In this document: in pieces, positions 30,662 through 60,594 of the stretch
Layout of the letters: every line of letters starts with the position of its first letter
Numbering within the stretch: the stretch's first letter is position 1
DNA from: Longicatena caecimuris
Lineage (GTDB): Bacteria; Bacillota_I; Bacilli_A; Erysipelotrichales; Erysipelotrichaceae
Direction: 5' to 3'
DNA length: 64,000 nucleotides
NCBI RefSeq assembly: GCF_004341945.1
Contig: NZ_SMBP01000014.1
Location: 1 to 64,000, forward strand
Program-made: the position numbers and the translations under genes
The notes under the pieces: model-generated
The model's database searches: none
Told to the model about the DNA's origin: nothing
Seen by the model: the letters and a program-made list of their open reading frames with translations, nothing else

Positions 30662-31852
30662 TTAACAAGCCAATCGTTCCAGTTCCGCTTTTGCGGATTG
30701 AAATGTACCGTGTGCATAATAGCCAAGTGTCATGGTTATGTTAGCGTGTCCCATGATATATTGCAGGGTGTTCGGGTTCATTCCCTTATTTGCCATGTTC
30801 GTGCAATAAGTGTGTCTTAATGAATGAGGTGTGATGTTTGGCAACTTGTCTTTGTGTGTCTTGTTGTATTTCTTAATCAGTCCTCTTAACATACCTACAT
30901 AGTTTCCAGCAACTTTAGGCAAGCCCTCACGGTTCAAGAATAAGAAATTGCTGTAACCACCGACAATCAGCGGTTGAGCTTTCCCTCTGTTCTTTAATAT
31001 TCGTTGGAGTGCTTGATAAGCTCTTTCGGATAATGGAAGTTCACGTTTTCCGTTTTTTGTCTTTGGAGTTTCAACATAGTAGCCGATTTCACTATCTTTC
31101 AATAGCTGGTGGTCTATATTGAGTGTTCTGTTCTGCATATCAATATGCGTTGTCAGTCCACAAAATTCAGAAATACGAAGTCCCGTTTCCAGAAGAAGCA
31201 CAACCTCATCATAATACTTGCTGTAAATCTTATCCGTTTCCATAAAGGCAAGCAGGCGTTCTTCCTGCTCTGGCGTAAGAATAACTTTCGGCTCGGTATC
31301 ATCTTCCAGAACATCACTTAGCTTAAATTCAAACGGGTTCTTTCTGATACAGTCGTCTTGTATCGCCATATAAAATGACGCTTTCAAGGAACGCTTATAG
31401 TTGTCAATCGTTTTGTAGGCATATCCTTTTTCACTCATTCTGATAGCCCATTCCTTAGCGTCCGACTGCTTGACGGTATCAATCGACCTCATACCCAAAG
31501 GGTCATTTTTCAGAGCGTTCATGAGATACTGTCGTCCTTTTTCGGTATTTCGTTTGATATTCTTTCTCTGGTTGTTTTTCTTGTCGTAGAGCTGGCAGAC
31601 AGTCATTTTACCGCCGATTGTGTCGATACCGTCGTCAAGGTCTTTTTTAATCTTTGCTTCTTTTTCCCTCAACGATATATCATCACGCTTTCCAGCAGGT
31701 GTCTTGTCTGTCGGTACAAGTTTCCAAGAATAAATAAACTGTGGTTTCCCGTATATATCGGTATATTTGTAAACGTATCTTCCGTCTTTTCGCTGGCTCT
31801 CTCCATTTCGTAAATTGCGATTTTTACTGTCTTTTCGTTTTACATTAGACAT
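30662..31852 (-). CDS. int: Tn916-family tyrosine integrase
   Basis: A 396-residue tyrosine recombinase clearly of the Tn916 Int type. The N-terminal arm-binding domain contains GESQRKDGRYVYKYTD and IYSWKLVPTDKTPAGKR, the core-binding domain contains DAKEWAIRMSEKGYAYKTI, and the catalytic domain contains GLRISE (Arg), HSLRHTYC (His-x-x-Arg), GHANI (His) and LGYYAH (nucleophilic Tyr). It excises and integrates the element. AAGGAGC precedes the ATG. It is intact. Confidence 0.97.
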   Translation of the reverse strand: MSNVKRKDSKNRNLRNGESQRKDGRYVYKYTDIYGKPQFIYSWKLVPTDKTPAGKRDDISLREKEAKIKKDLDDGIDTIGGKMTVCQLYDKKNNQRKNIKRNTEKGRQYLMNALKNDPLGMRSIDTVKQSDAKEWAIRMSEKGYAYKTIDNYKRSLKASFYMAIQDDCIRKNPFEFKLSDVLEDDTEPKVILTPEQEERLLAFMETDKIYSKYYDEVVLLLETGLRISEFCGLTTHIDMQNRTLNIDHQLLKDSEIGYYVETPKTKNGKRELPLSERAYQALQRILKNRGKAQPLIVGGYSNFLFLNREGLPKVAGNYVGMLRGLIKKYNKTHKDKLPNITPHSLRHTYCTNMANKGMNPNTLQYIMGHANITMTLGYYAHGTFQSAKAELERLAC

Positions 31853-31930: not shown

Positions 31931-32137
31931 TTAGATTTCGTCCAATGTATCTATGATTTTTTCAAATTGTTTTCGCTTTATCTGAATACGGTTGCCGTTC
32001 ACAATAACCCAGCCAGCGTCAATATTTTCTTCGGCTAATTTACGCAATTTCTTTTCGCCAATGCGGAAGTATTTAGACGCTTCTTCAATCGTCAGCGTAT
32101 ATTTTTCCCAGATAGGCACATCAGTATTGTTCATCAT
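31931..32137 (-). CDS. xis: Excisionase, Tn916 Xis type
   Basis: A 68-residue winged-helix protein. [17 protein letters not shown] and [19 protein letters not shown] match Tn916 Xis almost residue for residue. It directs Int to excision and lies 78 bases upstream of int, as in Tn916. Two consecutive ATGs are possible starts, and AAGGGGG lies upstream. Confidence 0.96.
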
Positions 32138-32508
32138 CTATGCACCCCCTTTACTGTGTGCTGTTTTTTACAAGCAGGCAGACGGCTTTGGAAAGCTCCA
32201 TTAGTATCTCAACTATTCCCATTCTTGTGGGCAGAACCGCACCATGCGGACGTATCATTATTCTGTGAGGATAGGTCGTGGCAAAACGACTTTTCCAACA
32301 GTCGCTCTCGGATCACTGCGTGGGTCGCTCGCTTTATTTTGAAAAGGTCGTGGCGTACAGTCCCCGTGGCTCGCTATCTCACAAACGTATCTGTCTGCTT
32401 TATTCAGTTGTCAAAGAGCTGTGGCGAAAGCGTGTTGCTTTCATGTAAAAGTAGGTGCAGAGCAGGAAAGAGGGGATTGAGCAAATCATGCTCTGCGGTT
32501 ACTGCTTA
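32138..32508. other. Non-coding spacer between orf8 and xis
   Basis: About 370 bases with no convincing gene. Two related segments containing GGTCGTGGC (about 32274-32300 and 32346-32356) and their partial complements could fold into hairpins. The corresponding interval of Tn916 also separates the regulatory genes from xis-int. I see no clean sigma-A promoter. Confidence 0.5.
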
Positions 32509-32763: not shown

Positions 32764-33180
32764 TCATTTCTCCTTTAGTAATTTTTTCATGAGTGCCAAT
32801 GAGTTATGCCGATTTTGAAATACTCCACTTCTGGAAATATTCTGCTTTTTTGCAATTTCTTCATTGTTCATTTCCAAAAAATAATACATTAGCAAAGTTT
32901 CACGGTTACGCTCGGACAACTGTTTTAAGGCTTCTGCCAATTCATCATCATAGACACGAATATCATTACCGCATACATTGAAAATTGTATAATCTGTTTC
33001 GTAGTCGTCCCAGACAGCCAGCTTTTCAACAACGATTTCTGGAAGATCACAAAATGAAATTTCCTTTTCTTTTCGTCGTTTCAATCCTTGCTGGTAGTCT
33101 TTAACAACATGACGGACAACTTTCTTCAAACAACTTTCAAAACGGCATTGAACTGTTTTCTGGAAGTCAGACGGTTTCAT
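32764..33180 (-). CDS. Tn916 Orf7-like sigma-70-family regulator
   Basis: About 138 residues beginning MKPSDFQKTVQ. A sigma region 4-like helix-turn-helix is seen in ALKQLSERNRETLLMYYFLEM and NEEIAKKQNISRSGVFQNR. It matches Tn916 Orf7. ATG at 33180 has GGAAAGGGGG upstream, and a longer reading frame upstream is spurious. A 154-bp piece of this gene (32863-33016) is duplicated at 38192-38345. Confidence 0.92.
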   Translation of the reverse strand: MKPSDFQKTVQCRFESCLKKVVRHVVKDYQQGLKRRKEKEISFCDLPEIVVEKLAVWDDYETDYTIFNVCGNDIRVYDDELAEALKQLSERNRETLLMYYFLEMNNEEIAKKQNISRSGVFQNRHNSLALMKKLLKEK

Positions 33181-33303
33181 AATCTCACCCCCTTTCCTGC
33201 TATGACTTGAAAAGTGGTTATCCCTCTTTCCGCACCATATAGGGAATGGCAGATGTGATTTGTTAAGTTGAAATCCAAAAAAATTGAAAAAAATTTTTGC
33301 ATT

Positions 33304-33672: not shown

Positions 33673-33704
33673 GTATAGCTTTACCGCTTACCAGATAACA
33701 AATA

Positions 33705-33751
33705 AGAGCCGACAATCTATAAGTTATAATAACCTATAAATTATCGGCTCT
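33705..33751 (-). repeat. Long hairpin at the 3' end of the KTR gene, copy 1
   Basis: AGAGCCGA and TCGGCTCT are the outer arms of a long near-perfect inverted repeat that includes the KTR stop codon. A near-identical copy occupies 41821-41867, again at the end of a KTR gene. Confidence 0.8.
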
Positions 33752-33926
33752 GCGTCTTTGCGTCTGGCTCTTTGATAATAGTTACTTTTCCATGCTTTAT
33801 ATTGATTAAAGTTTCTGTTTTGCATTTTGGACAGAACAAAGGAAAATTTATCAGTTCCGTATCTTCTCGTATCTTTGTGCGTGTCTTGTTATTGCAAATG
33901 GGGCATAAAACCCATGATTGTTTCAT
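33741..33926 (-). CDS. Cysteine-rich KTR-domain protein
   Basis: A 61-residue zinc-ribbon-like protein with CPICNNKTRTKIREDTEL and FCPKCKTETLINIKHG: two CPxC knuckles and the KTR motif that names the Cys_rich_KTR family. The family is common in Tn916-like elements and its function is unknown. It is the last cargo gene before orf9. A second copy at 41857-42048 has a nonsense codon. Confidence 0.88.
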   Translation of the reverse strand: MKQSWVLCPICNNKTRTKIREDTELINFPLFCPKCKTETLINIKHGKVTIIKEPDAKTQSR

Positions 33927-34627: not shown

Positions 34628-35542
34628 TTAAGTGAGATTTTTCTTTATTTTGCTGATATGAGCTAACACCTTTTCTTTGTATTTTTGAGGGGATAATATT
34701 TTTACTTTATCGCAAAGTCCCAAAAGGATTGAGAATGTTATAAAATCATTTTCTTTAATCTCAATTTCTCTTATAAAACATTCATTAACAGTTTCAACAA
34801 TTTCCCCTTTAAAATATTCATTAACTAAAGCATCTATTTCTTGTTTATAAGATAGAGTAACAGTAATATTTGTCTGATTGCGTCTTTTTTCAAAATCAGA
34901 TAAAAGGTTAGCTATATTATCTTTGGTTTCAAAAAGTTCTTTTGTTAAAGAAATATTTTTCATTCTGACCACTTTGAACATATGATAGTCATTTTTAGAG
35001 GTGTCATATCCAAAAACATACCATGAGTACCACCTATAATATGTGTGTAATGGGTTTAGAAAAACTTTTTTTGTATGTCCTGCTGAATTAGTATATATAA
35101 ATTTTATAGTTCTTTGTTCTTTTGTTGCTTTATTGATTAAGTCTACGCACTTCATAATTTGCGGACTTTCCGTTACAACAGAGAAATCAACATCTGGAAG
35201 TGCATTGATATTTACATCATTATAGAGATGTTTCATTTTTTCGTAAGTTTCAATAACCTTTTTATTTCCGTAAACAGTTCTTAGACTATTTAAGGCAAGC
35301 AAAATATATTCTTTATTGTTGCTGTCAATAATTTTTTCATCAACCTTAAAATCTTTATTTATTATATAGCCACCATTTACACCTAATTCAGAATAAATCG
35401 GAATACCGGCAAGAGTTAGTGTGTCAATATCTCGTAAAATCGTTCTGCGAGATACTTCAAACTTTTGTGCTAATTCATTTGTTGTTACACACTCTCTATT
35501 TATTAAATAAAAGATTATTCCTATCAGACGTTCTATTTTCAT
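34628..35542 (-). CDS. YafY-type transcriptional regulator (HTH plus WYL domain)
   Basis: A 304-residue regulator. The DeoR-like N-terminal helix-turn-helix is [20 protein letters not shown]. The central WYL domain reads [22 protein letters not shown] domains bind ligands, often nucleic-acid-derived. The start overlaps the upstream Spo0A_C-like gene by 4 bases (ATGA), so it is translationally coupled to the MATE operon. Confidence 0.9.
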
Positions 35543-35775
35543 ACTTTCAGCCCTTTAACTGCTTTCTTTGTAATTGTGTAAATATATTCCTCTGGCGTAG
35601 GGCGTTTATTTCCAAAATATTTTTTGAAATTTGCCTGCACCTCTGGATCGGTGCTGTTCATAGCTTCATCAATCGTTGCCTCAATATCAGCCCGTACATC
35701 AGCCAATGAAACACTGCCAGCTTTTGCACCTGCTTTCAATGCTTTTTTTATATCTCGTTTTTTTAATCCTATCAT
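35539..35775 (-). CDS. Small protein with Spo0A C-terminal-like domain, copy 1
   Basis: A 78-residue protein, [20 protein letters not shown] followed by [19 protein letters not shown] and [15 protein letters not shown]. The last two segments resemble the end of the Spo0A effector domain (RVERAIRHAI... KPTNSEFIAMVADKL), so it may be a stand-alone DNA-binding relative. That relation is my reading and needs a profile search. It overlaps MATE and the WYL gene by 4 bases each. Related copies are at 42084-42308 and 39624-39755. Confidence 0.75.
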
Positions 35776-37139
35776 AATAACCTTTCTGTACTTTTTTCAT
35801 AACTATTATTCTGATTATTCCACGAACGCAAAAGACGAAAATTCAAATATACTGAAACACATAGTGTTAATATTTCTGCAATGGGAACAGCCAACCATAC
35901 ACCTGTTATCCCAATGAACTGTGGCATTATCAACAAGCCTATCATTATAAAGCCGAATGTCCTTAGAAAAGAAATTAAAGCAGATAGCTTACCATTAGAT
36001 AATGCAGTAAAAATTGCTGATGAAAATATATTGAAACCCAAAAAAAGAAAACTAAATGCAAATATCATAAAACCGTTTATTGCAATTTTATATACCGCTT
36101 CATTCGTCCCAGTAAATAAATGCACCAAACTATTTCCATTTATAAAGGACAACGCAAAAATAAATATTGAACCTACAAAAATGAAAGAAATACAGATTTT
36201 ATATATTTTCTTTAATCTATAATAATTGTTTGCCCCAAAATTATAGCTAATTATAGGGGCAATGCCCATTGAAAAACCAATAAATAATGTTGTAAGTAAA
36301 AATTGTGTATATATAATTATAGTAATAGAAGCCACACCATTTACACCCAATAAATTCATCATTGTACGATTGAAAAAGAATGTAGTAATTGCTGTTGAAA
36401 GCTGGCTAACCATTTCTGATGAACCATTTATACAACTTTCTCCAAGTACTTTAAAATCTATAAGAGGTTTTACAAAAGACAATGTCCCCGATTTTTTACT
36501 AAAGACAATTAACCCCGTAATAGCTGGTATCAAATAACCAATTCCAGTTCCAAATCCTGCACCAGCAATCCCCATGTCAAATATAACCATAAAGAGATAA
36601 TCAAATACGATATTCATTACACCAGCACATACAGAAAGAACCAGTCCCAAAGTTGGTTTTCCTGCTGTTACAAATAAATTTTGAAATAGTACCTGCAACA
36701 TACTTGCAGGTGTAAATAGTAAAATAATAGTTAAATAATCTTTACAATATGGAAATAAAACATTATCAGCTCCAAGAGCATATATAATTTCATCAATAAA
36801 GATAATTCCCAGAATGGAAAATACTGCTCCCAAAATAAACCCAAATAAAATAAGGAGTGTAAAATCCTGTTTTGCTCGTTTGGGTTCTCCTGCCCCCATT
36901 TTTCTTGCAACTATGGCACTACCACCCGTAGCTATCATTGTTCCTAAGCCTACGATTAAATTAATAATAGGACAAACAATGTTGATTGCTGATAAAGCAT
37001 CTGTATTGACAAAGCGTGATATAAATATGGTATCTACAATAGTGTAAAGCCCCATAAATAACATCATGGATATTGTCGGGAAAGCAAATTTTAATAAAGA
37101 ACCAGTACTAAAATCTTTTGCAAGAGGATTACTATTCAT
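35772..37139 (-). CDS. MATE-family multidrug efflux transporter
   Basis: About 455 residues with around 12 hydrophobic helices. The N-terminal [28 protein letters not shown] and [19 protein letters not shown] are typical of MATE antiporters. It would export cationic drugs or metabolites using Na+ or H+. ATG at 37139 has GGGGGAAG upstream and overlaps the preceding AraC-GNAT gene by 8 bases, so that regulator probably controls it. Confidence 0.93.
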
Positions 37140-37989
37140 TTGTGCTTCCCCCATTTTTTGAAAATAATACTAATTTTTGTGTAGGATAACCAAATTCAAA
37201 TAATAATTCTGCTTCTGCAAAGCCTAATTCTTTGTAAGCCTTACGATACCCTGTATCAGCTTTGTCGCCCTCACGGAATGTTGTTACAGAAATGTCTTTA
37301 TCTATTAAAAGTTCATTCATAACCTTATCTAAAAACAATTTTGTAATACCACATTTACGATATAAAGGGTGTACTCCAAAGAAATCAATACTTCCCGTAT
37401 GATAGTTAATAGACATCAAAGCAATGGCAATATCATTATCACTTAAAATCAATACTCTTTGCTCTAAAATACCTCTTTCTAATTCTGATAAATATTCATT
37501 ATCATTCAAATTTGGAAAGCCGTCTATTACTAAATAAGCTAGTTCTAGGCAGGCAGGTATATCAGTTGTTGTGGCAAACCTAATATTTTCTTTTATTTCT
37601 TTTTGTGATAATTTTTGTTTAATTGTTTGTATCAAATCAAATCTAAGCTGTAACGGATAAAACTCTTCGTTCACTCGATATTCATTAGGCGTTTTCTTAT
37701 ACATCTGCTTAAAAATATTTGTAAATGCTTGCTGACTTTCATACCCAGCAATAAGTGAGATTTCAAGAATAGATTTATCAGAAAACACTAAAAGTTTTGC
37801 AGATTCTGTTAATTGTCTGCGTTGTACATAGTCATGTATAGACAACCCCACAGTTTCGACAAACATTCTATGCAAATGATACTTTGAATACCCAACGCCC
37901 ATCGCAATAGAAGATAAGTTTAGTTTTTCTGTGAGATTGTCTTCTATGTAATTGATAACAGTTATAATGTTTTCAACCTTATTGACCAT
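37132..37989 (-). CDS. AraC-type regulator fused to a GNAT acetyltransferase domain
   Basis: A 285-residue fusion. Residues 1-105 are an AraC double helix-turn-helix (LSSIAMGVGYSKYHLHRMF and ISLIAGYESQQAFTNIFKQM). Residues about 125-285 are a GNAT domain (IRFATTTDIPACLELAY and HPLYRKCGITKLFLDKVM). The N-terminal position of the DNA-binding domain is opposite to classic AraC. It is the first gene of a four-gene overlapping set with MATE, the Spo0A_C-like protein and the WYL regulator. Confidence 0.88.
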   Translation of the reverse strand: MVNKVENIITVINYIEDNLTEKLNLSSIAMGVGYSKYHLHRMFVETVGLSIHDYVQRRQLTESAKLLVFSDKSILEISLIAGYESQQAFTNIFKQMYKKTPNEYRVNEEFYPLQLRFDLIQTIKQKLSQKEIKENIRFATTTDIPACLELAYLVIDGFPNLNDNEYLSELERGILEQRVLILSDNDIAIALMSINYHTGSIDFFGVHPLYRKCGITKLFLDKVMNELLIDKDISVTTFREGDKADTGYRKAYKELGFAEAELLFEFGYPTQKLVLFSKNGGSTNE

Positions 37990-38117
37990 TACAGCACCCT
38001 CCTTTCAGCTTAGATTATAATACTTTGTTTTCTTCAAGTTTTAATATATATTGCGGTTTTTACATGAATTATTATTTTAACTTATTCAGAACTATTTGTG
38101 AATATAATTCAATGAAA

Positions 38118-38155
38118 ATGTAGTTTGCAAATCATATTTCTATGAAATACAAACT
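38118..38155 (-). repeat. Hairpin beside the orf7/tcpC scar
   Basis: GTAGTTTG / CAAACTAC with a long loop and a T-rich right flank. Its position left of a tcpC-like tail resembles that of the TetR terminator at 43793-43828. Confidence 0.45.
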
Positions 38156-38167
38156 ACTTCTTTTGAT

Positions 38168-38485
38168 TTATCCAATTATCTTCAAGTTACTATTGTTCAT
38201 TTCCAAAAAATAATACATTAGCAAAGTTTCACGGTTACGCTCGGACAACTGTTTTAAGGCTTCTGCCAATTCATCATCATAGACACGAATATCATTACCG
38301 CATACATTGAAAATTGTATAGTCTGTTTCATAGTCGTCCCAGACATCTTTACTGTATTCGATTTTACAAACTGCTTTATATTCATTGTTCATATGCTGAT
38401 ACAACTCATCAAATGCAGAGTTTTCAATATAACCGCTTATTTCACTAATACTAGGTACATAATTTATATCTTTTATGTCTATCAC
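38168..38485 (-). pseudogene. Chimeric scar: DUF3788 start + 154 bp of orf7 + tcpC tail
   Basis: A 105-codon frame built from three sources. Codons 1-47 (MIDIKDINYVPSISEISGYI) look like the start of a DUF3788 protein. Codons for WDDYETDYTIFNVCGNDIRV onward are a copy of orf7: 38192-38345 matches 32863-33016 with two mismatches. The last codons read SNLKIIG*, like the tcpC end SNWKIVG*. No domain is complete, so I call it a recombination scar, although it is still open. Confidence 0.85.
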
Positions 38486-38563
38486 AACGGTCTATGCCCT
38501 CCTTTATAGACTTTTTATTTCATTTTCATTCGTGTCGGATAATTCCTATTTAGCATTTACTGT

Positions 38564-39475
38564 TTACACAGGAATTACCCATATTTCCATATAATTAATC
38601 TCTGCATTTCCTTTGTAATATTTTTCTGCCATGAATGGCTTTGTAACCAAATTATGATTTGGAAGCCAAGTTTCAAACAGATACTTATTTGCTTGATTTA
38701 AAGCAGTAGTAACAAGTTCTTCAAAAGATTCTGCCTCAATTTTGCATACAATATACTCACCTGCTGGTAATGTATGTTGTACCATATTTTTAGGACATAC
38801 ATCTGTTGATGAAACCATACCTCCTGCAAAGTAAAGGAATGTTCCTTTATCTGGACTTGCTAAGTGAGATACACCAAGTTCAATATCATTGTTAAAAATG
38901 GCATTTTCGGTTTGCAGTTTCTTTGCATGGAATTCGCGCCATAGCTGACCTGGAACATCAATTCCTGTACTTTCTCCAGCAGGAATTTGTTCAGCAATAT
39001 TTACTGTTTTTTCAAAACCAAAATATGTTTCCTTTGTTCTTAATGTTTTTCTTTGAATTTCCAAAACAATATTCCCTATAATCAATGGAACATTCTCATC
39101 AATCATAACATAATGAGAAGAAAGTTCTGGCTTGTCAAATGTATTTAACATAGGAACACTCTTTCTGTATTCATCGGGAGTAATATGATAAACTTCTTTA
39201 AATGCTCTGGTGAAATTCGCATGGTCTGAAAATCCATATTTTAAAGCTATATCTAATATCCTTTCCTCTGAATTATTCAATTCTGTTATCACCATTGCTA
39301 AACGGCGAAGTTTGATATACTCTTGAACTGATTTCTTAACTAACTTTTTAAACAAGCGTTGGTAATAAAATGTAGAAAGACAGGCAATTTCCGCCAGTTT
39401 CTCTGTTTCGATTTTCTCACTTAAATGTTGTTCAATATAGTTTAATGACATTTCAATATTTTCATATGCGTACAT
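38564..39475 (-). CDS. AraC-family regulator with GyrI-like effector-binding domain
   Basis: A 303-residue regulator. An N-terminal AraC helix-turn-helix pair (LAEIACLSTFYYQRLF and IALKYGFSDHANFTRAF) is followed by a GyrI/Rob-like effector-binding domain (about 145-303, with YVMIDENVPLIIG and ending YMEIWVIPV). Such proteins bind hydrophobic or cationic drugs and switch on efflux or detoxification genes. Its target is not obvious: the next gene in the same direction is the orf7 scar. Confidence 0.9.
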   Translation of the reverse strand: MYAYENIEMSLNYIEQHLSEKIETEKLAEIACLSTFYYQRLFKKLVKKSVQEYIKLRRLAMVITELNNSEERILDIALKYGFSDHANFTRAFKEVYHITPDEYRKSVPMLNTFDKPELSSHYVMIDENVPLIIGNIVLEIQRKTLRTKETYFGFEKTVNIAEQIPAGESTGIDVPGQLWREFHAKKLQTENAIFNNDIELGVSHLASPDKGTFLYFAGGMVSSTDVCPKNMVQHTLPAGEYIVCKIEAESFEELVTTALNQANKYLFETWLPNHNLVTKPFMAEKYYKGNAEINYMEIWVIPV

Positions 39476-39623
39476 ATCAGTACCTCCTTGTATAATTTAT
39501 AATCAAAGTATACATGAAAATTTTTTGTATAGCTTGTCGCACAATGCCATTATCTTATAAGAAATCAAAAGATATAAAAAACCAATTTTGTCTATATGGT
39601 AACTTTTATTTCTTTGGTACTTT

Positions 39624-39755
39624 TTAATGAGCCATATCTAATAAATTCATCAAATATCTTTTAATGCTTTTCGTATCATAGACCTTTGGAACTGTATTGT
39701 TCATTGCTTCGTCAATAGTCGCTTCAATATTAGCCATAACATCAGCTAGTGACAT
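39624..39755 (-). pseudogene. Fragment of a third Spo0A_C-like gene
   Basis: An ATG at 39755 opens [20 protein letters not shown], closely matching the middle of the intact copies ([20 protein letters not shown]). The reading then diverges and stops after 43 codons. The [13 protein letters not shown] start and the [13 protein letters not shown] end are missing. It overlaps the end of the GNAT gene by 14 bases. Confidence 0.8.
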
Positions 39756-40293
39756 AATCAGATTTCAAAATCCCATATAGGTAGTAGTCGCAATAGGTAT
39801 TTACCATTTTTCCCCCTCGAATATGTCCTTCCCTTTGAAAACCGACTTTCTCCAATGTCTTGTAAGAAGCATGATTTAAAATATGCACATCTGTCCATAT
39901 TTTTTGTAATTCTGTTTTTGAAAAACAAAATTCAATTACGCTTTTCAACGCTTCACTCATTAGCCCATTACCTTGATATTGCTTAGAAAGTCTGAAAGCC
40001 ACTTTTGCCATTCTATTATTTTCAATAAGGTATATCCATATTTCACCAATCACTTTGCTATCTTGTTTATGGACAATTCCCCAATGAAAACTTTTAGTAG
40101 CTTTTTCTGGCTTATTAAAGAGTAATTCTGGATTTTTTTCGCTTTTTGAAGGACGTTTCCCCCAATACTCGTATAAAGAAATATCACTAATCCATTCTTT
40201 CAAATCATCTATGTCATTTTTATTCATTGTTCTTAAAATAAGATGTTCTGTTTCAATTACTGGTTTTTCAAAAATGTAATCCTGCAAACTCAT
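39742..40293 (-). CDS. GNAT N-acetyltransferase (RimJ/RimL-like)
   Basis: A 183-residue acetyltransferase. IETEHLILRTMNKNDIDDL starts the fold, the acetyl-CoA loop is around RLSKQYQGNGLMSEALKSVI, and KIWTDVHILNHASYKTLEKVGF is typical of the RimJ/RimL branch. The substrate could be a protein N-terminus, antibiotic or amine. It is 13 bases downstream of trmO. Its last codons run into a fragment of the Spo0A_C-like gene, so the C-terminus may have been altered. Confidence 0.88.
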   Translation of the reverse strand: MSLQDYIFEKPVIETEHLILRTMNKNDIDDLKEWISDISLYEYWGKRPSKSEKNPELLFNKPEKATKSFHWGIVHKQDSKVIGEIWIYLIENNRMAKVAFRLSKQYQGNGLMSEALKSVIEFCFSKTELQKIWTDVHILNHASYKTLEKVGFQREGHIRGGKMVNTYCDYYLYGILKSDYVTS

Positions 40294-40306
40294 GGTTCAT
40301 CACTCC

Positions 40307-40783
40307 TTAAAAATTGAATTCATTTTCCCATGCAAAAGAAGCAGATTCTTCTAAGCTGTGAGGCCAATGACTACACCAATCTGGAACTTGCGGATTTTCC
40401 ACTCTATCCAAACTCGGCGTGTATGGTTTAATATCCAAGATAGGCGTTTTGTCATTAGCGTCAATATAAGCAATTTGTATCAGCCCACTCATATAATCAA
40501 TATTGATAATTTCTACTGCTGATAAAGCAATCGGATTTGGGCGTACTGGCGACCTTGTTGCAAAAATCCCCATTTTCTCTGGAGCTTTTTTATAAGGTTG
40601 GTCTGTTTCCAATACGCTTCTAAAATCCGCATTGTCAAAATCGCTGAACCACCATAAAACATTGATATGGCTGAATCCGTCTAATTCCTTTAATGCTAGA
40701 ATATATGGTGCTTCTAGTTGAATGAAAGCACCTTTTTCATTGTTGTAGATAGTACCTATTGAATTTACTTTATAAGTTGTCAT
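40307..40783 (-). CDS. trmO: tRNA (N6-threonylcarbamoyladenosine-37) methyltransferase TrmO-like
   Basis: A 158-residue TsaA/TrmO-type protein. VNSIGTIYNNEKGAFIQLEA, LDGFSHINVLWWF and the SAM-site segment GIFATRSPVRPNPIALSAVEI are diagnostic. TrmO methylates t6A37 of threonine tRNAs. Its presence in ICE cargo, between a MerR regulator and an acetyltransferase, is unusual. Confidence 0.9.
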   Translation of the reverse strand: MTTYKVNSIGTIYNNEKGAFIQLEAPYILALKELDGFSHINVLWWFSDFDNADFRSVLETDQPYKKAPEKMGIFATRSPVRPNPIALSAVEIINIDYMSGLIQIAYIDANDKTPILDIKPYTPSLDRVENPQVPDWCSHWPHSLEESASFAWENEFNF

Positions 40784-40863
40784 TATATTTTCCTCCGTTT
40801 TCTTCTTGATAAATAAACGATAAACCTTAACACCATGTTAAAGTCAAGGCAGATTATCATTTT

Positions 40864-41679
40864 TTACAAGAGATTTTCTAAAGGAATTTGGATTTCTGTT
40901 AGATAGTTCTCTGGATTTTTATCGTTCCACGGTCCACGATGAACTATTTGACGGCTTGAACCTTTCATCTTATATTGACTGTTTTCTTGAAGCCATTTAG
41001 CAAATGAACGATAAGCATAAGAAATATTAGAAAAATCTCCATATACCATAGTACAAGCCATCATAGAAACTGGTTCGGTAAAACGAAACTTAAAATCACC
41101 TGTAGCTTTTCCTATTTTATTTACAATGGCACATAATTCTACATCAACATCTTTTTCTTTATATTCTTTATTGTGATATATTGAGAATGTCTCATCAGAA
41201 ATATTTATTTTATTTTCTTTAGCAAAAGCAGAGAGTTCTTTCCAGAGTTCGCCCTCATAATAATAATTGGGTATTTCTTTTCTTAAAGATAAAACGCAAT
41301 AACTCGGTATCTCTTTTATGGTTATGTTAAAATACAATTCACTTTTACCATATAACAATTCTTTTTTAGCAATCTCAATTTTCTTTAATTTTTCTTGTTC
41401 TTTTTGTATATTATCCATAATTTCAACAGACTTTTTATCAAGCTGTTCTATAATGGCATTATTACTGTAATTGAGAGATAATGCAATTTCAGCAACATTA
41501 AACCCACTATCACGTAAATATATAATTCTATTTAAAGTTGAGATTTGTTCTGCTGAATACATACGATAGCCAGTCAATGAATCAATTTTCGCAGGTTTTA
41601 ACAAACCCATTTCATCATAATAACGCAACATACGAGTAGAAACTTGTGTCAGTTTTGAAAACTCACCAATTTTGAACAT
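40864..41679 (-). CDS. MerR-family regulator with GyrI-like effector domain
   Basis: A 271-residue BmrR-like regulator. The N-terminal winged helix is FKIGEFSKLTQVSTRMLRYY followed by GLLKPAKIDSLTGYRMY. A dimerisation coiled coil lies around 80-115, and the C-terminal GyrI-like domain ends YLTEIQIPLENLL. It likely responds to a drug or metabolite and activates the downstream trmO-GNAT genes, 80 bases away. Confidence 0.9.
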   Translation of the reverse strand: MFKIGEFSKLTQVSTRMLRYYDEMGLLKPAKIDSLTGYRMYSAEQISTLNRIIYLRDSGFNVAEIALSLNYSNNAIIEQLDKKSVEIMDNIQKEQEKLKKIEIAKKELLYGKSELYFNITIKEIPSYCVLSLRKEIPNYYYEGELWKELSAFAKENKINISDETFSIYHNKEYKEKDVDVELCAIVNKIGKATGDFKFRFTEPVSMMACTMVYGDFSNISYAYRSFAKWLQENSQYKMKGSSRQIVHRGPWNDKNPENYLTEIQIPLENLL

Positions 41680-41820
41680 TTTATCCCTCCATTCATGTAC
41701 CTAATTATAATTATTGATTATTTATACTTCAATATAAAAAGGGATACAAATACATTGTCAGTCACAAAATAGACAAGCTCTTTACTCTTATTTGCTGATC
41801 TGCTTCGCAGGTAACAAATA

Positions 41821-41867
41821 AGAGCCGACAATCTATAAGTTAAAATAACCTACAAATTATCGGCTCT
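41821..41867 (-). repeat. Long hairpin at the 3' end of the KTR pseudogene, copy 2
   Basis: Near-identical to 33705-33751, with the same outer arms AGAGCCGA / TCGGCTCT. It again sits on the stop codon of a KTR gene. The two copies mark equivalent points of two joined cargo regions. Confidence 0.8.
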
Positions 41868-42048
41868 GCGTCTTTGCGTCTGGCTCTTTGATAATTGTTA
41901 TAATTCCATTTTTTATGTTGATTAAACTTTCATGTTTACACTTCGGACAAAACAATGGAAAATTTATCAACTCAGTATCTTTGCGAATTTTTATTCATGT
42001 CTTACTGCCACATATAGGACACAAAACCCATAATTGATTTTCAACCAA
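41857..42048 (-). pseudogene. Cys-rich KTR-domain gene with a nonsense codon
   Basis: The minus-strand frame from a TTG at 42048 reads LVENQLWVLCPICGSKT, then TGA, then IKIRKDTELINFPLFCPKCK and on to IKEPDAKTQSR. The intact paralogue at 33741-33926 has arginine where the stop lies, so one CGA-to-TGA change has broken this copy. The rest is well conserved. Confidence 0.88.
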
Positions 42049-42083: not shown

Positions 42084-42308
42084 TCAAAACTTTATTTTTT
42101 TAGTGATTGTGTAAATATATTCTTCTGGCGTAGGGCGTTTATTTCCAAAATACCTTTTATAATTCGCCTGCACCTCTGGGTCGGTGCTGTTCATAGCTTT
42201 ATCAATCATTGATTCAATATCAGCTCGAACATCAGCATACGACGAACCGCCAGCCTTTGCACCTGTTTTCAAGGCTTTTTTTATATCTCGTTTTTTTAGA
42301 CCTATCAT
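42084..42308 (-). CDS. Small protein with Spo0A C-terminal-like domain, copy 2
   Basis: A 74-residue paralogue of the 35539-35775 protein, starting [20 protein letters not shown] and ending [21 protein letters not shown] at 42308 is chosen by analogy with copy 1, which has the same AAAGGTTATT ribosome binding sequence. It lies between an Ntn-hydrolase gene and the KTR pseudogene. As in copy 1, it closes an effector gene cluster. Confidence 0.75.
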   Translation of the reverse strand: MIGLKKRDIKKALKTGAKAGGSSYADVRADIESMIDKAMNSTDPEVQANYKRYFGNKRPTPEEYIYTITKKIKF

Positions 42309-42353
42309 AATAACCTTTCTTATCATAATTGCAAATTTATAAATTCATTAGTA

Positions 42354-43792: not shown

Positions 43793-43828
43793 GCTTGCAA
43801 ATCAAAACAGAAATGCAAGCCTTTTTCT
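43793..43828 (+). terminator. Terminator of the tetR gene
   Basis: GGCTTGCA / TGCAAGCC stem with a 14-base loop and TTTTT on the plus strand, ending just before the stop codon of the truncated tcpC copy. Confidence 0.88.
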
Positions 43829-43829
43829 T

Positions 43830-44561
43830 TTATCCTACTATCTTCCAGTTACTATCCTTATGTAGCACAAGCTCATACTGCGACACCTGTGTTGCCTTTG
43901 TCTGATTATCAAGGAACTTCACAGCCACTTTGACTTTCACATTGTCCCCGTCCTTTGTAAAGATAGGGGTTACCAATTCAGAATACAGATAGTCCCTGCC
44001 GATAGGTTCAAGCACATTTCCCGATACATAGTAGGTAAGTTCTTTTTCTGTGGCTGTCGGGTACAGCTTAAAGAATGTTTCCAGAAATGCGGTAGCGTCA
44101 TTGACGGTATCAGCGTCCACGCTTGCGTCTGTTTCTGGTATCTTTGGTTCAAAATCTGATTTTTCGATTGCTGGTGCAAGGGTAGGGTTCTGAACGATTA
44201 CCATATCCCCGTCAGCGTCTACATGGACTTTGACCGTATAAGTTGCTTTGACATTTGTTGTCTGTTCGCCCTCTTTTATCTGCTGATCTACTTCGTAGGT
44301 AGCGATAAATTCGTCCGTACCAGACTGTGCCACGTCCCAGATTAACACATCAAGAACGGTGGAGCTGGTTGGAATATCTGTTCTTATGGTATCAACATTT
44401 AGTGCCTGCAACTCCTTTGTCAGATACCCATTGATAGAAGCGGTACGGGCTTCAATCGCTTCTTTGCTGTTATTCCATGTGTAATAGGACTTCGCAAAGT
44501 TCTTTACGAAGTCTTCGATACCGTTGGTATCATCAAGGCGTAGCTGTATAGTTTGTCAGCC
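43830..44561 (-). pseudogene. Truncated second copy of tcpC (orf13)
   Basis: The minus-strand frame matches the full-length TcpC at 46237-47139 from about IQLRxDDTNGIE to the C-terminal SNWKIVG. Identity to that gene ends at about 44561. The N-terminal cytoplasmic region and transmembrane helix are missing, so a normal membrane-anchored TcpC cannot be made. A 193-residue internal frame from 44411 is open but unlikely to function. Confidence 0.88.
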
Positions 44562-46194: not shown

Positions 46195-46228
46195 AAGGCA
46201 GATAACCACGGCATGGTGTACCTGCCTT
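46195..46228 (+). terminator. Terminator of the lysR gene
   Basis: AAGGCAG / CTGCCTT stem with a T-run on the plus strand, immediately before the 3' end of tcpC. Confidence 0.75.
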
Positions 46229-46236
46229 TTACTATG

Positions 46237-47139
46237 TTATCCTACAATCTTCCAGTTATTATCTTTATGTAGCACAAGCTCATACTGCGATACCTGCGTT
46301 GCCTTTGTCTGATTATCAAGGAATTTCACAGCAACCTTGACTTTCACATTATCCCCGTCCTTTGTAAAGACTGGGTTTACCAATTCTGAATAAAGGTAGT
46401 CCCTGCCGATAGGTTCAAGCATATTCCCCGTTACATAGTAGGCAAGTTCCTTTTCTGTGGCTGTCGGGTACAGCTTAAAAAATGTTTCCAGAAAAGCGGT
46501 AGCGTCATTCACAGTATCAGCGTCCACACTTGCGTCTGCTTCTTGTGCCTTTGGCTCATAGTCTGATGTTTTTACATCTGGTGCAAGAGTAGGGTTCTGC
46601 ACGATTACCATATCCCCGTCAGCGTCTACATGGACTTTGACCGTATAAGTTGCTTTGACATTTGTTGTCTGTTCGCCCTCTTTTATCTGCTGATCTACTT
46701 CGTAGGTAGCGATAAATTCGTCCGTTCCAGACTGTGCAACGCCCCAGATTAATACATCAAGGGCGGCAGAGCTGGTCGGAATATCTGTTCTTATGGTATC
46801 AACATTTAGTGCCTGCAATTCCTTTGTCAGATACCCATTGATAGAAGCAGTACGTGCTTCGATTGCTTCCTTGCTGTTGTTCCAAGTATAATAAGACTTT
46901 GCAAAATTCTTTACAAAATTTTCTATCCCGTTGGTATCATCAATGCGTAGCTGTATGGTTTCTTTCTCATGTACCGTGTGCATATCAATCGCTGTAAAAT
47001 TCTTATACACTCCAAAGCTCACACTTGCGATAAGCACGACCCAAAGGGCGATTACTGTTTTCTTATGTATACCTACTTTCATAGTACGCACTCTTTTTTC
47101 TTTCACGGGTTTTGTCTGTTTCTCTTTCTTCTTAAACAT
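46237..47139 (-). CDS. tcpC: Conjugation protein TcpC (Tn916 Orf13)
   Basis: About 300 residues. A short basic cytoplasmic N-terminus (MFKKKEKQTKPVKEKR) and one transmembrane helix (TVIALWVVLIASVSFGVY, about 30-47) are followed by two NTF2-like extracellular domains. TcpC/ConG-type proteins are VirB8-like parts of Gram-positive transfer machines. ATG at 47139 has GTGAGG upstream. A truncated copy is at 43830-44561, and a third fragment of the tail is in the scar at 38168. Confidence 0.93.
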   Translation of the reverse strand: MFKKKEKQTKPVKEKRVRTMKVGIHKKTVIALWVVLIASVSFGVYKNFTAIDMHTVHEKETIQLRIDDTNGIENFVKNFAKSYYTWNNSKEAIEARTASINGYLTKELQALNVDTIRTDIPTSSAALDVLIWGVAQSGTDEFIATYEVDQQIKEGEQTTNVKATYTVKVHVDADGDMVIVQNPTLAPDVKTSDYEPKAQEADASVDADTVNDATAFLETFFKLYPTATEKELAYYVTGNMLEPIGRDYLYSELVNPVFTKDGDNVKVKVAVKFLDNQTKATQVSQYELVLHKDNNWKIVG

Positions 47140-47159
47140 AAATTGTAAGTCCTCACTTT

Positions 47160-48167
47160 CTATTGTTTTATTCTGCCTGCACCGATTAAGTGTGCCTGCC
47201 AATAACTGCTGGTTAAGTCAGCATATCCGATAGGGTCGCCAGCATGATACATCTGATTGTTTCCTACATAGATACCGACGTGTGTTACATAACTTCCTGC
47301 ATTGTAAGTGGAATGGAAAAATACCAAATCGCCAGCCTTTGCCTGCGAGAGTGGGATATGCTGTGTTGCGTCATATTGTGTTTGTGCGGTTCTCGGTAAC
47401 GAGATACCAGCCTTACCAAAGCACCATTGCGTCAGTCCACTACAATCAAAGGAAGTATTAGGGTTACTTCCACCATATACATACTTCCAGCCTTGATATT
47501 TTAGGGCTTCATTCATAATCGCCTGCACCGTTGCGTCGTCAAAGTGTGCGACAGTCAAGTATTGATTGACAAGCTCCACATAAAACATATTTCCATAGGA
47601 ATATCGCCAGCCCCCGTTTTTCGCAACGGCTATCGGGTTGGTATAAGTTACTTTAGTACCGCCTGATTTTTCTCTGGCGAAATTCTCGGCAAGGGTAAAG
47701 GTATGTTTCTTTCCTTTTACTGCCACATATCCCACATAACCACCGCCGTAGTTATAGGACTGTATCGCTACATTCAAATCTTTTATCCCTTGTACTTCAC
47801 ATGAAGAAAGCAGGGACGCAAAATATTTACACCCCTGCTTAATGGAACTTTCTGTATCTAATGAGTTGGGCGGTAGTCCCAGACTTTCCGAACTCTGCAT
47901 AACGTCCTCGGCTGTACCGCCACTTTCTACTTGAATGATTGCAAGCAACACATTCACATACTCGGAAATACCGTTTTCCTTTGCGTATTTGTCCACCGTT
48001 AGCTGATGTTTCAAGACTTCTGCGGATAGGTTCATACCACCAATAGAAGATGAATAATTCCCATCACCGTCGTCGTCCTCTGCACTAATCAGCACCCCAA
48101 AGAATAAGACGATTGAAAAGAAGATAGGAAACAGACAGCCAATGATAGCCATGTGTTTCAATCTCAT
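47160..48167 (-). CDS. Conjugal cell-wall hydrolase (Tn916 Orf14; lysozyme-like plus NlpC/P60)
   Basis: A 335-residue two-domain peptidoglycan hydrolase. An N-terminal signal/anchor (IIGCLFPIFFSIVLFFG) precedes a lysozyme-like transglycosylase domain with glutamate in LLAIIQVESGG (about 85). The C-terminal NlpC/P60 domain has cysteine in FDCSGLTQWCF and histidine in VTHVGIYVG. It opens the wall for the transfer channel. It overlaps orf15 by 4 bases. Confidence 0.95.
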   Translation of the reverse strand: MRLKHMAIIGCLFPIFFSIVLFFGVLISAEDDDGDGNYSSSIGGMNLSAEVLKHQLTVDKYAKENGISEYVNVLLAIIQVESGGTAEDVMQSSESLGLPPNSLDTESSIKQGCKYFASLLSSCEVQGIKDLNVAIQSYNYGGGYVGYVAVKGKKHTFTLAENFAREKSGGTKVTYTNPIAVAKNGGWRYSYGNMFYVELVNQYLTVAHFDDATVQAIMNEALKYQGWKYVYGGSNPNTSFDCSGLTQWCFGKAGISLPRTAQTQYDATQHIPLSQAKAGDLVFFHSTYNAGSYVTHVGIYVGNNQMYHAGDPIGYADLTSSYWQAHLIGAGRIKQ

Positions 48168-58260: not shown

Positions 58261-58803
58261 TCACTTTTTCTTGATAAGTTTCAGTTTTATATTTCTTCTG
58301 TTGGCAATCTTCTGAAACACCTCTACCACATACAAGCATTGTGCCTGAAATGATAGTAAGGTCAATTCGTCATTGGATTGTATTTGTTTCATTGCTTCTT
58401 GCAATTCTGAAAGTTCTAGTAAATTGACTGTCACACAAAAGAAAGTTTTCCTACGCCCATCATTATAGTTAGAAAGTAAGTAAGAAAGAATTTGTGTTTT
58501 TTCCTGCTGTTCAAGATTATATTGCTCAATGCCTATGTTTTTCGCTCTTTCTAAATCTGCTTTTTGTCGTCTGCTCGTAATAAAAATATCATAATCATCA
58601 ATGTGTTGGTATTTTTCACATGGATATTGCTTACACTCATAGCAATATTCAATCTTTCCATGTTCAAGACTACATTTCGCAATTCTGCATGATTGATTAC
58701 CATTGCCACAACCGCCACAGTAATTTCCCAAAAGCATAGGGCATAGTCCACAATTCAATCCGCAAAGAGAAAATAATTGGTTTTTGCGTTCAAATCCTTT
58801 CAT
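58261..58803 (-). CDS. DUF3795-family cysteine-rich protein
   Basis: A 180-residue protein with an N-terminal cysteine cluster (SLCGLNCGLCPMLLGNYCGG, then CRIAKC and CYECKQYPCEKY), typical of DUF3795. Probably metal-binding, function unknown. AT-rich. It is one of four single-gene inserts between orf21 and orf22. Confidence 0.82.
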   Translation of the reverse strand: MKGFERKNQLFSLCGLNCGLCPMLLGNYCGGCGNGNQSCRIAKCSLEHGKIEYCYECKQYPCEKYQHIDDYDIFITSRRQKADLERAKNIGIEQYNLEQQEKTQILSYLLSNYNDGRRKTFFCVTVNLLELSELQEAMKQIQSNDELTLLSFQAQCLYVVEVFQKIANRRNIKLKLIKKK

Positions 58804-58822
58804 AGTATTAGTCTCCTAACTT

Positions 58823-58868
58823 CAAATTTATCTTTGGATTTATTGACTTTTACAAACTGGAATTTATC
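58823..58868. repeat. Intergenic repeat, copy A
   Basis: About 47 bases matching 59591-59636 at roughly 40 of 47 positions, including ATTGACTT and GAATTTATC. It covers the stop codon of the transglutaminase-like gene. Shorter relatives lie at 54393-54422 and 58236-58264. Confidence 0.7.
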
Positions 58869-59568
58869 AATCAGCATTTCTTATCTCTCTTATATTGCGA
58901 TTCATTAAATGTCTGCCTAAATTTCTATATAGAAAGGCTTTAAATACGGACATTTCTTGGTGATGTTCTTTAAGTAAATCGTCTGGGCAATCATATATTC
59001 CGAAGTCTTGACTGATTCCTTCGCTTTGAATATAAGTATTGTTTCGCTCAAAATCAATTACAGGATTGCGGAAATCTTTTACAGCAACACCATATCCGCA
59101 AAAAGCACCTATACAAGTAGCATTTATGCTCTGTAATCTTGAGAGGTATTCTTTATCTAAAATAAATGCCTCAAGTTCATACCATACTCCGTCCAAATAA
59201 ACTTCTACCCAACTATGAAAAATATTTTTAGGGGCATTTTTATATACAATGCCAGTCATTGCACCTTTTTGTAATTTTTTATCAATCGTAAATCCATGTA
59301 TTCGGCATGGGACATTTACTCCACGAAGTAATGCCATGAAAAGCGTTCCTTTTGTATTACATTGTCCATATCCATCAGATAAAACTTCTGATGCCGAAAT
59401 ACTATCATCCACATTATATCCGAATAAAATTTCATCACGAACAAAATTGTATATCTGCTTGATACGATTGTATATATCAACATCTTTCCATTCTCTATCA
59501 CTTATTAAATGTTGTATATTGACATCTGAAAAGTTTAACATAGGTGTTTCTCTCAAATACTTCTCCAT
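58867..59568 (-). CDS. Transglutaminase-like cysteine protease family protein
   Basis: A 233-residue protein. The catalytic Cys is in DGYGQCNTKGTLFMALLRG (about 96), His in FHSWVEVYLDG (about 138), and a following Asp or Glu in WYELEAFILD completes the triad seen in bacterial transglutaminase-like domains. No signal peptide, so it is cytoplasmic. The target is unknown. Confidence 0.85.
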   Translation of the reverse strand: MEKYLRETPMLNFSDVNIQHLISDREWKDVDIYNRIKQIYNFVRDEILFGYNVDDSISASEVLSDGYGQCNTKGTLFMALLRGVNVPCRIHGFTIDKKLQKGAMTGIVYKNAPKNIFHSWVEVYLDGVWYELEAFILDKEYLSRLQSINATCIGAFCGYGVAVKDFRNPVIDFERNNTYIQSEGISQDFGIYDCPDDLLKEHHQEMSVFKAFLYRNLGRHLMNRNIREIRNAD

Positions 59569-59590
59569 ATAATTTACCCTCTCAAAAATT

Positions 59591-59636
59591 CTAATTTATC
59601 TTTGTATTTATTGACTTCCACAAACAAGAATTTATC
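59591..59636. repeat. Intergenic repeat, copy B
   Basis: The partner of 58823-58868. It covers the stop codon of the VOC-family gene. The two copies bracket the transglutaminase-like gene. Confidence 0.7.
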
Positions 59637-60072
59637 GCATACAAGCATTTATAAATTTCATAGGTACATCCATACGTTCTGCAACTTGTTCTGGTGTCAT
59701 TCCACTATTTAAGAAACGCTTGCACACTATCTTCATGTTTTCTCCAACTTCGATAATATGTTTATCTGGGTTATAAAAGCGGACTACACGCTGTCCCCAT
59801 GAATGCTCTATAATAGGGTGGACATATTCAATATCATATTCTTTCAGCCTATCAGCAAATTTATCAAAATCATCTTCTTCAAAATAGACTTTAAAATTGT
59901 TACCACCAAAAGAAATATCACTTGTACCGATAAACTCTTTGTATGTTTCACTTGTCTGTAAGGCTAAGCCACCTGTTAAAGTTTTATTTGCTCCAAAATC
60001 CATAATGACATGAAGTCCAAAAACCTTTTTATAAAACTCAACTGATTTATCTATATCAGTTACTACCAACAT
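59632..60072 (-). CDS. VOC (glyoxalase/bleomycin-resistance-like) family protein
   Basis: A 146-residue vicinal-oxygen-chelate fold protein. VTDIDKSVEFYKKVFGLHVI and RVVRFYNPDKHIIEVGENM are typical, and a C-terminal helical extension (PEQVAERMDVPMKFINACM) follows. Only some of the usual metal ligands can be assigned (His in EHSWGQ, Glu in IIEVGE). Detoxification or drug binding is possible. It has a TATAAT just upstream at 60114-60119. Confidence 0.85.
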   Translation of the reverse strand: MLVVTDIDKSVEFYKKVFGLHVIMDFGANKTLTGGLALQTSETYKEFIGTSDISFGGNNFKVYFEEDDFDKFADRLKEYDIEYVHPIIEHSWGQRVVRFYNPDKHIIEVGENMKIVCKRFLNSGMTPEQVAERMDVPMKFINACMR

Positions 60073-60144
60073 AGGGTTTTTAAATATCGTCGGCTCTTTG
60101 AATATCCGAATATATCCACATTATATCATTGCAAATTCTAATAC

Positions 60145-60594
60145 TTATATCTTCCTTTTCTTAAATTTTTCCTTTGCATATTCATAGGCTTCTTGAATAA
60201 GTGGTTTCAATTCTTCAAATTTTTGCTCTGTAGGGTTTAAAATACAGACCCAGCCCATCCATGCGTATATAGGGTGTGGCATTAGTTGATTGCTGGAAGT
60301 AAAATCATATTCCATTTCTACGATACCGCCTTTTATTGGTCGCTTAGGGATACCGCCAAACATATTTACAAATGTATTTTTTCTCAACCCCATATTTACA
60401 CGGTATATGTTTTCTCTATCAAGATTAGAGCTTTTATCATTCTCGCCGTCTTTTTCTTTAACAGTAAGAATATACACCCCACGTTTAAGCGTATTATTAG
60501 GATTGTAAAATATACCTTTTTCTCCCCAGCTATTTACTAAAACAGTACCTTCCAAGTTATTAAGACAATATTGTAATATCTTATCTGGTGTCAT
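60145..60594 (-). CDS. DUF6194-like protein, 149 aa
   Basis: Starts MTPDKILQYCLNNLEGTVLV and has SWGEKGIFYNPN and PHPIYAWMGWVCILNP near the end. The pattern resembles DUF6194, distantly MmcQ/YjbR-like. I do not know its function. It is the last of four single-gene inserts before orf22. Confidence 0.68.
   Translation of the reverse strand: MTPDKILQYCLNNLEGTVLVNSWGEKGIFYNPNNTLKRGVYILTVKEKDGENDKSSNLDRENIYRVNMGLRKNTFVNMFGGIPKRPIKGGIVEMEYDFTSSNQLMPHPIYAWMGWVCILNPTEQKFEELKPLIQEAYEYAKEKFKKRKI

Follow-up and report, generated by a model that had tools for sequence, protein, structure and literature searches.

The open reading frame (ORF) at positions 38485-38168 (minus strand) of the window, i.e. 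of the 64,000 nucleotides of Longicatena caecimuris DNA that were analysed, combines sequence from three genes. It is probably the scar of a seam, created when two cargo modules (A and B) of a Tn916-like ICE had become neighbours and illegitimate joins eliminated the DNA between them. The ORF comprises 105 codons, begins with a GTG and is located in the cargo of the ICE between tcpC and orf7. Its parts and the hairpin that follows them are:

38338-38485, minus strand: 5' part of a DUF3788 gene (residues 1-49), continuous with the intact DUF3788 gene of loci L024 and L025 (97% identity over 38334-41743) and of L028
38192-38345, minus strand: internal piece (154 bp) of the sigma-like gene orf7, identical to 32863-33016 in 152 of 154 positions
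38168-38193, minus strand: tcpC'', the last 26 bp of tcpC, encoding SNLKIIG-stop, continuous with a longer tcpC in L060
38104-38167, minus strand: terminator-like hairpin after the tcpC'' stop (folding z = -5.0), also found after tcpC'' in L060

Composition of the ORF and its host element

All three pieces are read in their native frames, and an AGGAGG-like site, which is a plausible ribosome site, lies 12 nt upstream of the GTG. The initial annotation had described a frame that is still open, that consists of the start of a DUF3788 gene, 154 bp of orf7 and a tcpC tail, and that records at least two illegitimate joins. This description is borne out by the alignment of the orf7 piece, the Pfam and tail matches, the breakpoints and the intact donors of both ends. 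The alignment of the orf7 piece to 32863-33016 is ungapped (BLASTN E about 5e-74), and only these two copies exist in the genome. The 26-bp tail resembles the tcpC 3' ends at 43830 and 46237, with at most three mismatches to the query word; this word has three matches in the window, compared to none expected from 100 shuffles. The DUF3788 start lies in its native position next to and downstream of the AraC-GyrI gene at 38564-39475 and was truncated in place; it is not an imported fragment.

The domains are incomplete. The DUF3788 profile (Pfam PF12663) matches residues 9-46 of the ORF with positions 2-41 of its 128 positions and scores 18.7 bits, which is below the cut-off of 25. Sigma region 4 is matched in profile positions 2-27 of 54; the score of 18.7 bits falls short of 25.7, and a complete helix-turn-helix is not present. 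For the TcpC domain (PF12642), of which the ORF contains only the last eight codons and the stop, no Pfam match was obtained.

The portion of the window from approximately 30.5 kb to its end, read on the minus strand, is assigned by gene content and gene order to a Tn916-like ICE. The source genome has a size of 2.9 Mb and was placed in the same order as Thomasclavelia cocleata. On the minus strand, the genes are arranged as integrase, xis, orf8, orf7, about 13 kb of cargo, tcpC, orf14 and conjugation genes. As in other elements of this type, a Tn916-type tyrosine integrase is accompanied by xis, and the regulatory genes orf7 and orf8 as well as the conjugation genes up to tcpC follow the canonical order. 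In Pfam searches, orf8 matched HTH_16 and orf7 sigma region 4. The ORFs corresponding to orf14-orf24 are in order, and several of their names are based on this order and on related loci. The following features are relevant for the analysis:

30662-31852, minus strand: Tn916-type integrase, a marker of Tn916-like ICEs (PF02920, 109.1 bits; PF00589, 125.4 bits)
31931-32137: xis, 96-99% identical to the int-adjacent xis genes of related elements
32764-33204, minus strand: intact resident orf7 (Sigma70_r4_2, 38.7 bits)
35784-38167, minus strand: module B with an AraC-GNAT gene (37132-37989) and a MATE gene (35772-37154), located after the tcpC'' tail (93% identity over 2.4 kb to L060; 99.7% to L031)
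38486-41743, minus strand: rest of module A with MerR, TrmO, GNAT and AraC-GyrI genes, up to the truncated DUF3788 gene (97% identity to L024 and L025)
43819-44554, minus strand: tcpC', a second and longer tcpC 3' copy and another seam of this kind (90% identity to 46224-46961; TcpC domain, 146 bits)
46237-47202, minus strand: full-length resident tcpC (PF12642, 185.7 bits)

Several repeats were observed in the element. A region with a cysteine-rich KTR gene exists in two copies (33686-33923 and 41802-42040; 83% identity), which hints at repetition of module ends in the cargo. An ORF of 78-80 codons recurs at module ends (35539-35775, 42084-42326 and 39682-39746) and also in L028, L059, L060 and L075; it matched no family above the cut-off, and only a weak match to Spo0A_C was obtained. 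A second cargo site at 58261-60594, between FtsK-like and orf23-like genes, contains, as judged by reading the sequence, DUF3795-like, transglutaminase-like and VOC-like genes as well as a 71-bp repeat (58812/59580). T. cocleata has a counterpart of positions 59589-60088 of this site with 95% identity. A direct repeat of approximately 320 bp (80% identity) is found at 61817-62520, towards the far end of the element, within an ORF of 787 codons that resembles a surface protein.

A separate observation concerns the region between orf8 and xis, where an Rfam pemK RNA (RF02913) is located at 32198-32261 (minus strand) and also in related elements. In the Tn916-type element of pCF10 (L120:1987-2087), pemK starts at ATAATGATAC, nt 283 counted from the orf8 stop. 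For the antiterminator canT, an inactivating ATA-to-TGC change at nt 283, designated canT(S3), and an inactivating deletion of nt 229-390 have been reported (PMC11658703); the main text of that paper does not mention pemK or Rfam. Because the start of pemK coincides with the canT(S3) site, this orphan motif probably represents the core of the processive antiterminator canT. This coincidence may matter more than the seam scar itself.

Related modules and searches for the chimera

Donors of module A were found by scanning genome contigs with the upstream AraC protein. The 3.4 kb at 41743-38334 are present with 97% identity in T. cocleata (L024) and in Clostridium methylpentosum (L025), in both cases directly behind a tcpC end, and parts of the module occur with 89-96% identity in Anaerostipes hominis (L028). 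In all three loci the DUF3788 gene is intact and comprises 144 codons; the L025 protein reaches 111.5 bits with PF12663. These genes are the intact donors that the initial annotation had proposed to look for. The alignment of module A to L024 and L025 breaks at TGTCTGGG. In these two loci, the tcpC end is followed by module A with the intact DUF3788 gene, an orf7 leader (corresponding to 33473-33301), an orf14'-tcpC copy and other cargo. This arrangement is a seam of the same kind, with an orf7 side against a tcpC side and with other breakpoints.

Module B is located in another genome of the family (L060) directly behind a tcpC 3' part of 456 bp, without an orf7 piece. The 26-bp tail in the window and the following hairpin are the end of a tcpC of the L060 type. 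Compared to L060:13923-13982, the hairpin at 38104-38167 shows a better match when its orientation is reversed, as would be the case after an inversion of the loop between the arms.

A junction between orf7 and tcpC, which the initial annotation had likewise suggested as a check, was found in L031, a 4.9-kb contig of a metagenome-assembled genome. This contig contains module B with 99.7% identity and the same orf7'|tcpC'' join; 181 bp (38308-38488) are absent. The deletion takes the DUF3788 part with the start codon as well as 38 bp of the orf7 piece, and the remaining ATG opens 17 codons in another frame. Either the form seen in the window was cut further, or two left-hand deletions met one right-hand join. 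Under both accounts the start and the frame are gone in L031, so the frame is not being kept. Near identity of the orf7 copies had been taken as a sign of a recent event; this claim is weakened, as the orf7'|tcpC'' seam is already common to L031 and has been cut further there.

Conservation of the full-length frame across many genomes, which had been named as the observation that would contradict the reading as a scar, was looked for. The exact DUF3788|orf7 join had no match in a collection of 84,980 species (approximately 85,000 genomes), in a scan with an exact, degenerate pattern that misses diverged copies. Among 315 genomes of the order, the full-length chimera was present in its own genome only. 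No match resulted when plasmid and phage records were searched at near identity with 37990-38563 or when plasmids were searched by tblastn with the DUF3788 part. When the DNA of 295 genomes from the phylum was searched, only weak matches or matches to orf7 were obtained outside the genome of the ORF. Viral contigs contained one relative of orf7, two relatives of DUF3788 (66-69% identity) and none of the AraC-GNAT gene. Given the absence of the join elsewhere and the loss of the frame in L031, the ORF is regarded as a seam scar and not as a conserved gene.

The two joins and their possible origin

At the DUF3788|orf7 join, both genes have in common an 8-bp microhomology, TGTCTGGG, at 38345-38338. 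The orf7|tcpC'' join has an overlap of only 2 bp (AT, 38193-38192). A microhomology of at least 8 bp is expected in approximately 0.04% of random breakpoint pairs between DUF3788 and orf7, whereas one of at least 2 bp at the second join is expected in 17%. The 8-bp overlap is therefore rare by chance and the 2-bp overlap is not. Both joins keep the frame, which has a chance probability of about 1 in 9. Furthermore, a 12-bp word, ATGAACAATGAA, is common to DUF3788 and orf7, and the second join (38192-38200) lies inside the copy in orf7; this may be a coincidence or the trace of an intermediate.

The two mismatches of the orf7 piece are at its positions 16 and 25 of 154. Both sites are variable among other orf7 alleles, in which the base of the fragment is present. 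It is therefore conceivable that the source was another allele of orf7 and not a copy of the local gene, even though the resident orf7 is the closest relative (152/154) and the next allele found reaches 96.7%.

The seam probably arose in the following way. Module A (MerR to AraC-DUF3788) and module B (AraC-GNAT, MATE and further genes) would have come to adjoin in one element, with the cargo regions of related elements, or two such elements, in tandem, so that orf7 sequence was placed between the modules. The backbone between the tandem cargo regions would then have been lost through illegitimate joins. One of these, at TGTCTGGG, would have fused codon 49 of DUF3788 to the middle of orf7, and the other, with the 2-bp overlap, would have attached the last 26 bp of the tcpC of module B to orf7. 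The order of events is deduced, and so is the tandem ancestor, since no element was found in which an intact orf7 lies between module A and a tcpC''-headed module B. This account is the simplest one. In other genomes, modules A and B are each located directly behind a tcpC 3' end.

It is rather unlikely that the structure results from a single event with filler DNA. In that case, the repair of a break located between DUF3788 and tcpC'' would have involved template switching guided by microhomology, with 154 bp of orf7 being copied before the ends were rejoined at the tcpC end. A template in the same orientation and with 152/154 identity would have been available either in the local orf7 at a distance of 5.3 kb or on a sister copy. 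The entry microhomology of 8 bp as well as the position of the second join within ATGAACAATGAA would fit such a copying step. In L024 and L025, moreover, a stretch of only some 2 kb that contains no orf7 separates DUF3788 from the next tcpC. However, the bases at the two mismatches, which are those of other alleles, suggest an orf7 copy other than the local one, and the second join overlaps tcpC by merely 2 bp. A direct intermediate, in which the DUF3788 sequence ATGAACAAT is joined to the tcpC tail, was absent from the 147 genomes searched.

The seam scar that is favoured here leaves little room for a role of the chimeric protein that, according to the initial annotation, could be made. That the DUF3788-orf7-TcpC fusion is expressed and active, for example by interfering with Orf7, is highly improbable. 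The 105 open codons, the AGGAGG-like site and the native frames are what a gene would require, and fusion genes occur in Tn916, where orf9 has been described as one (PMC7288454). Yet approximately one third of DUF3788, the first half of sigma region 4 and eight residues of TcpC are all that remains of the domains, no conserved family was found, and L031 has kept the seam while losing the start, the DUF3788 part and the frame. The loss of the frame in L031 makes a function of the protein unlikely, and the open frame in the window is presumably incidental. Least credible of all is an assembly artefact due to collapsed orf7 copies: a near-identical repeat of 154 bp is shorter than a read pair and might be mis-joined, but the order orf7'|tcpC''|module B recurs in the independent assembly L031, on both sides the sequence continues as that of the correct module, and two bases distinguish the repeat from the other copy.

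tcpC remnants and mosaicism of Tn916-like elements

In the 315 genomes of the order, the exact tcpC tail occurs in 18 copies in 11 genomes. Eight of these coincide with full-length TcpC matches; the rest are remnants with lengths between 21 and about 740 bp, among which one is possibly cut by a contig edge and those of G242 and G297 represent the same junction. Remnants of tcpC at the heads of modules are thus common, and such seams recur. A limited search of the literature gave no description of them. In L060 (genome G491), the MATE gene of module B itself ends in frame in a 21-bp tcpC-like tail (...NSYEKIQNWKIVG-stop; NWKIVG-stop), which is followed by a hairpin (L060:11577-11640, minus strand).

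In viral contigs, three of the five matches to the 21-bp word belong to unrelated proteins ending in TNWKIIG. A tail of 21 bp is therefore no proof of a tcpC origin, and its context is needed; the tcpC origin of the tail in the window rests on its continuity with L060. A strict hotspot at the tcpC tail is not claimed: the distance of the breakpoints from the downstream stop varies between 21 and about 740 bp, and a search with the tail selects for the tail. It is doubtful, too, whether the tcpC 3' end with its stop and terminator is a favoured join point for the stacking of ICE cargo. According to this idea, each module would be headed by a tcpC tail, and recombination, or selection for stop and terminator, would keep the last 20-30 bp, so that upstream genes (orf7' in the window, MATE in L060) share an NWKIVG-like tail.

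Comparable mosaics are known. In Tn916, orf9 has been described as a gene fusion (TT31/orf9t; PMC7288454); as in the present ORF, a gene of the element was joined in frame to foreign sequence, and a remnant of the old gene is located nearby. In contrast to the present ORF, which consists of three truncated pieces, is known from one genome and has decayed in another, orf9 is of full length, widespread and regulatory. The hybrid gene tet(S/M) and composite elements are also known from the Tn916-like family (PMC4202715). Like the ORF, tet(S/M) is a mosaic that was generated by recombination between ICE cargo genes; however, it joins two homologous genes, whereas the genes combined here are unrelated and no function is expected. 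The Tn916/Tn1545 composites (PMC4202715) are similar in that additional DNA has entered a Tn916 backbone. Those described result mostly from insertion of other transposons, IS or ICEs, whereas in the window tcpC 3' remnants precede the modules and the seam showed no insertion sequence. The ORF is a further example of the known mosaicism of the Tn916 family, made from unrelated genes and already decaying.

The seam is a readable record of how an ICE of gut Firmicutes acquired efflux and regulator modules. For annotation it is useful to note that an open frame in such a cargo region does not have to represent a gene. Should tcpC tails be a general feature at the head of cargo modules, they could serve as markers for parsing the cargo of ICEs into units of acquisition.
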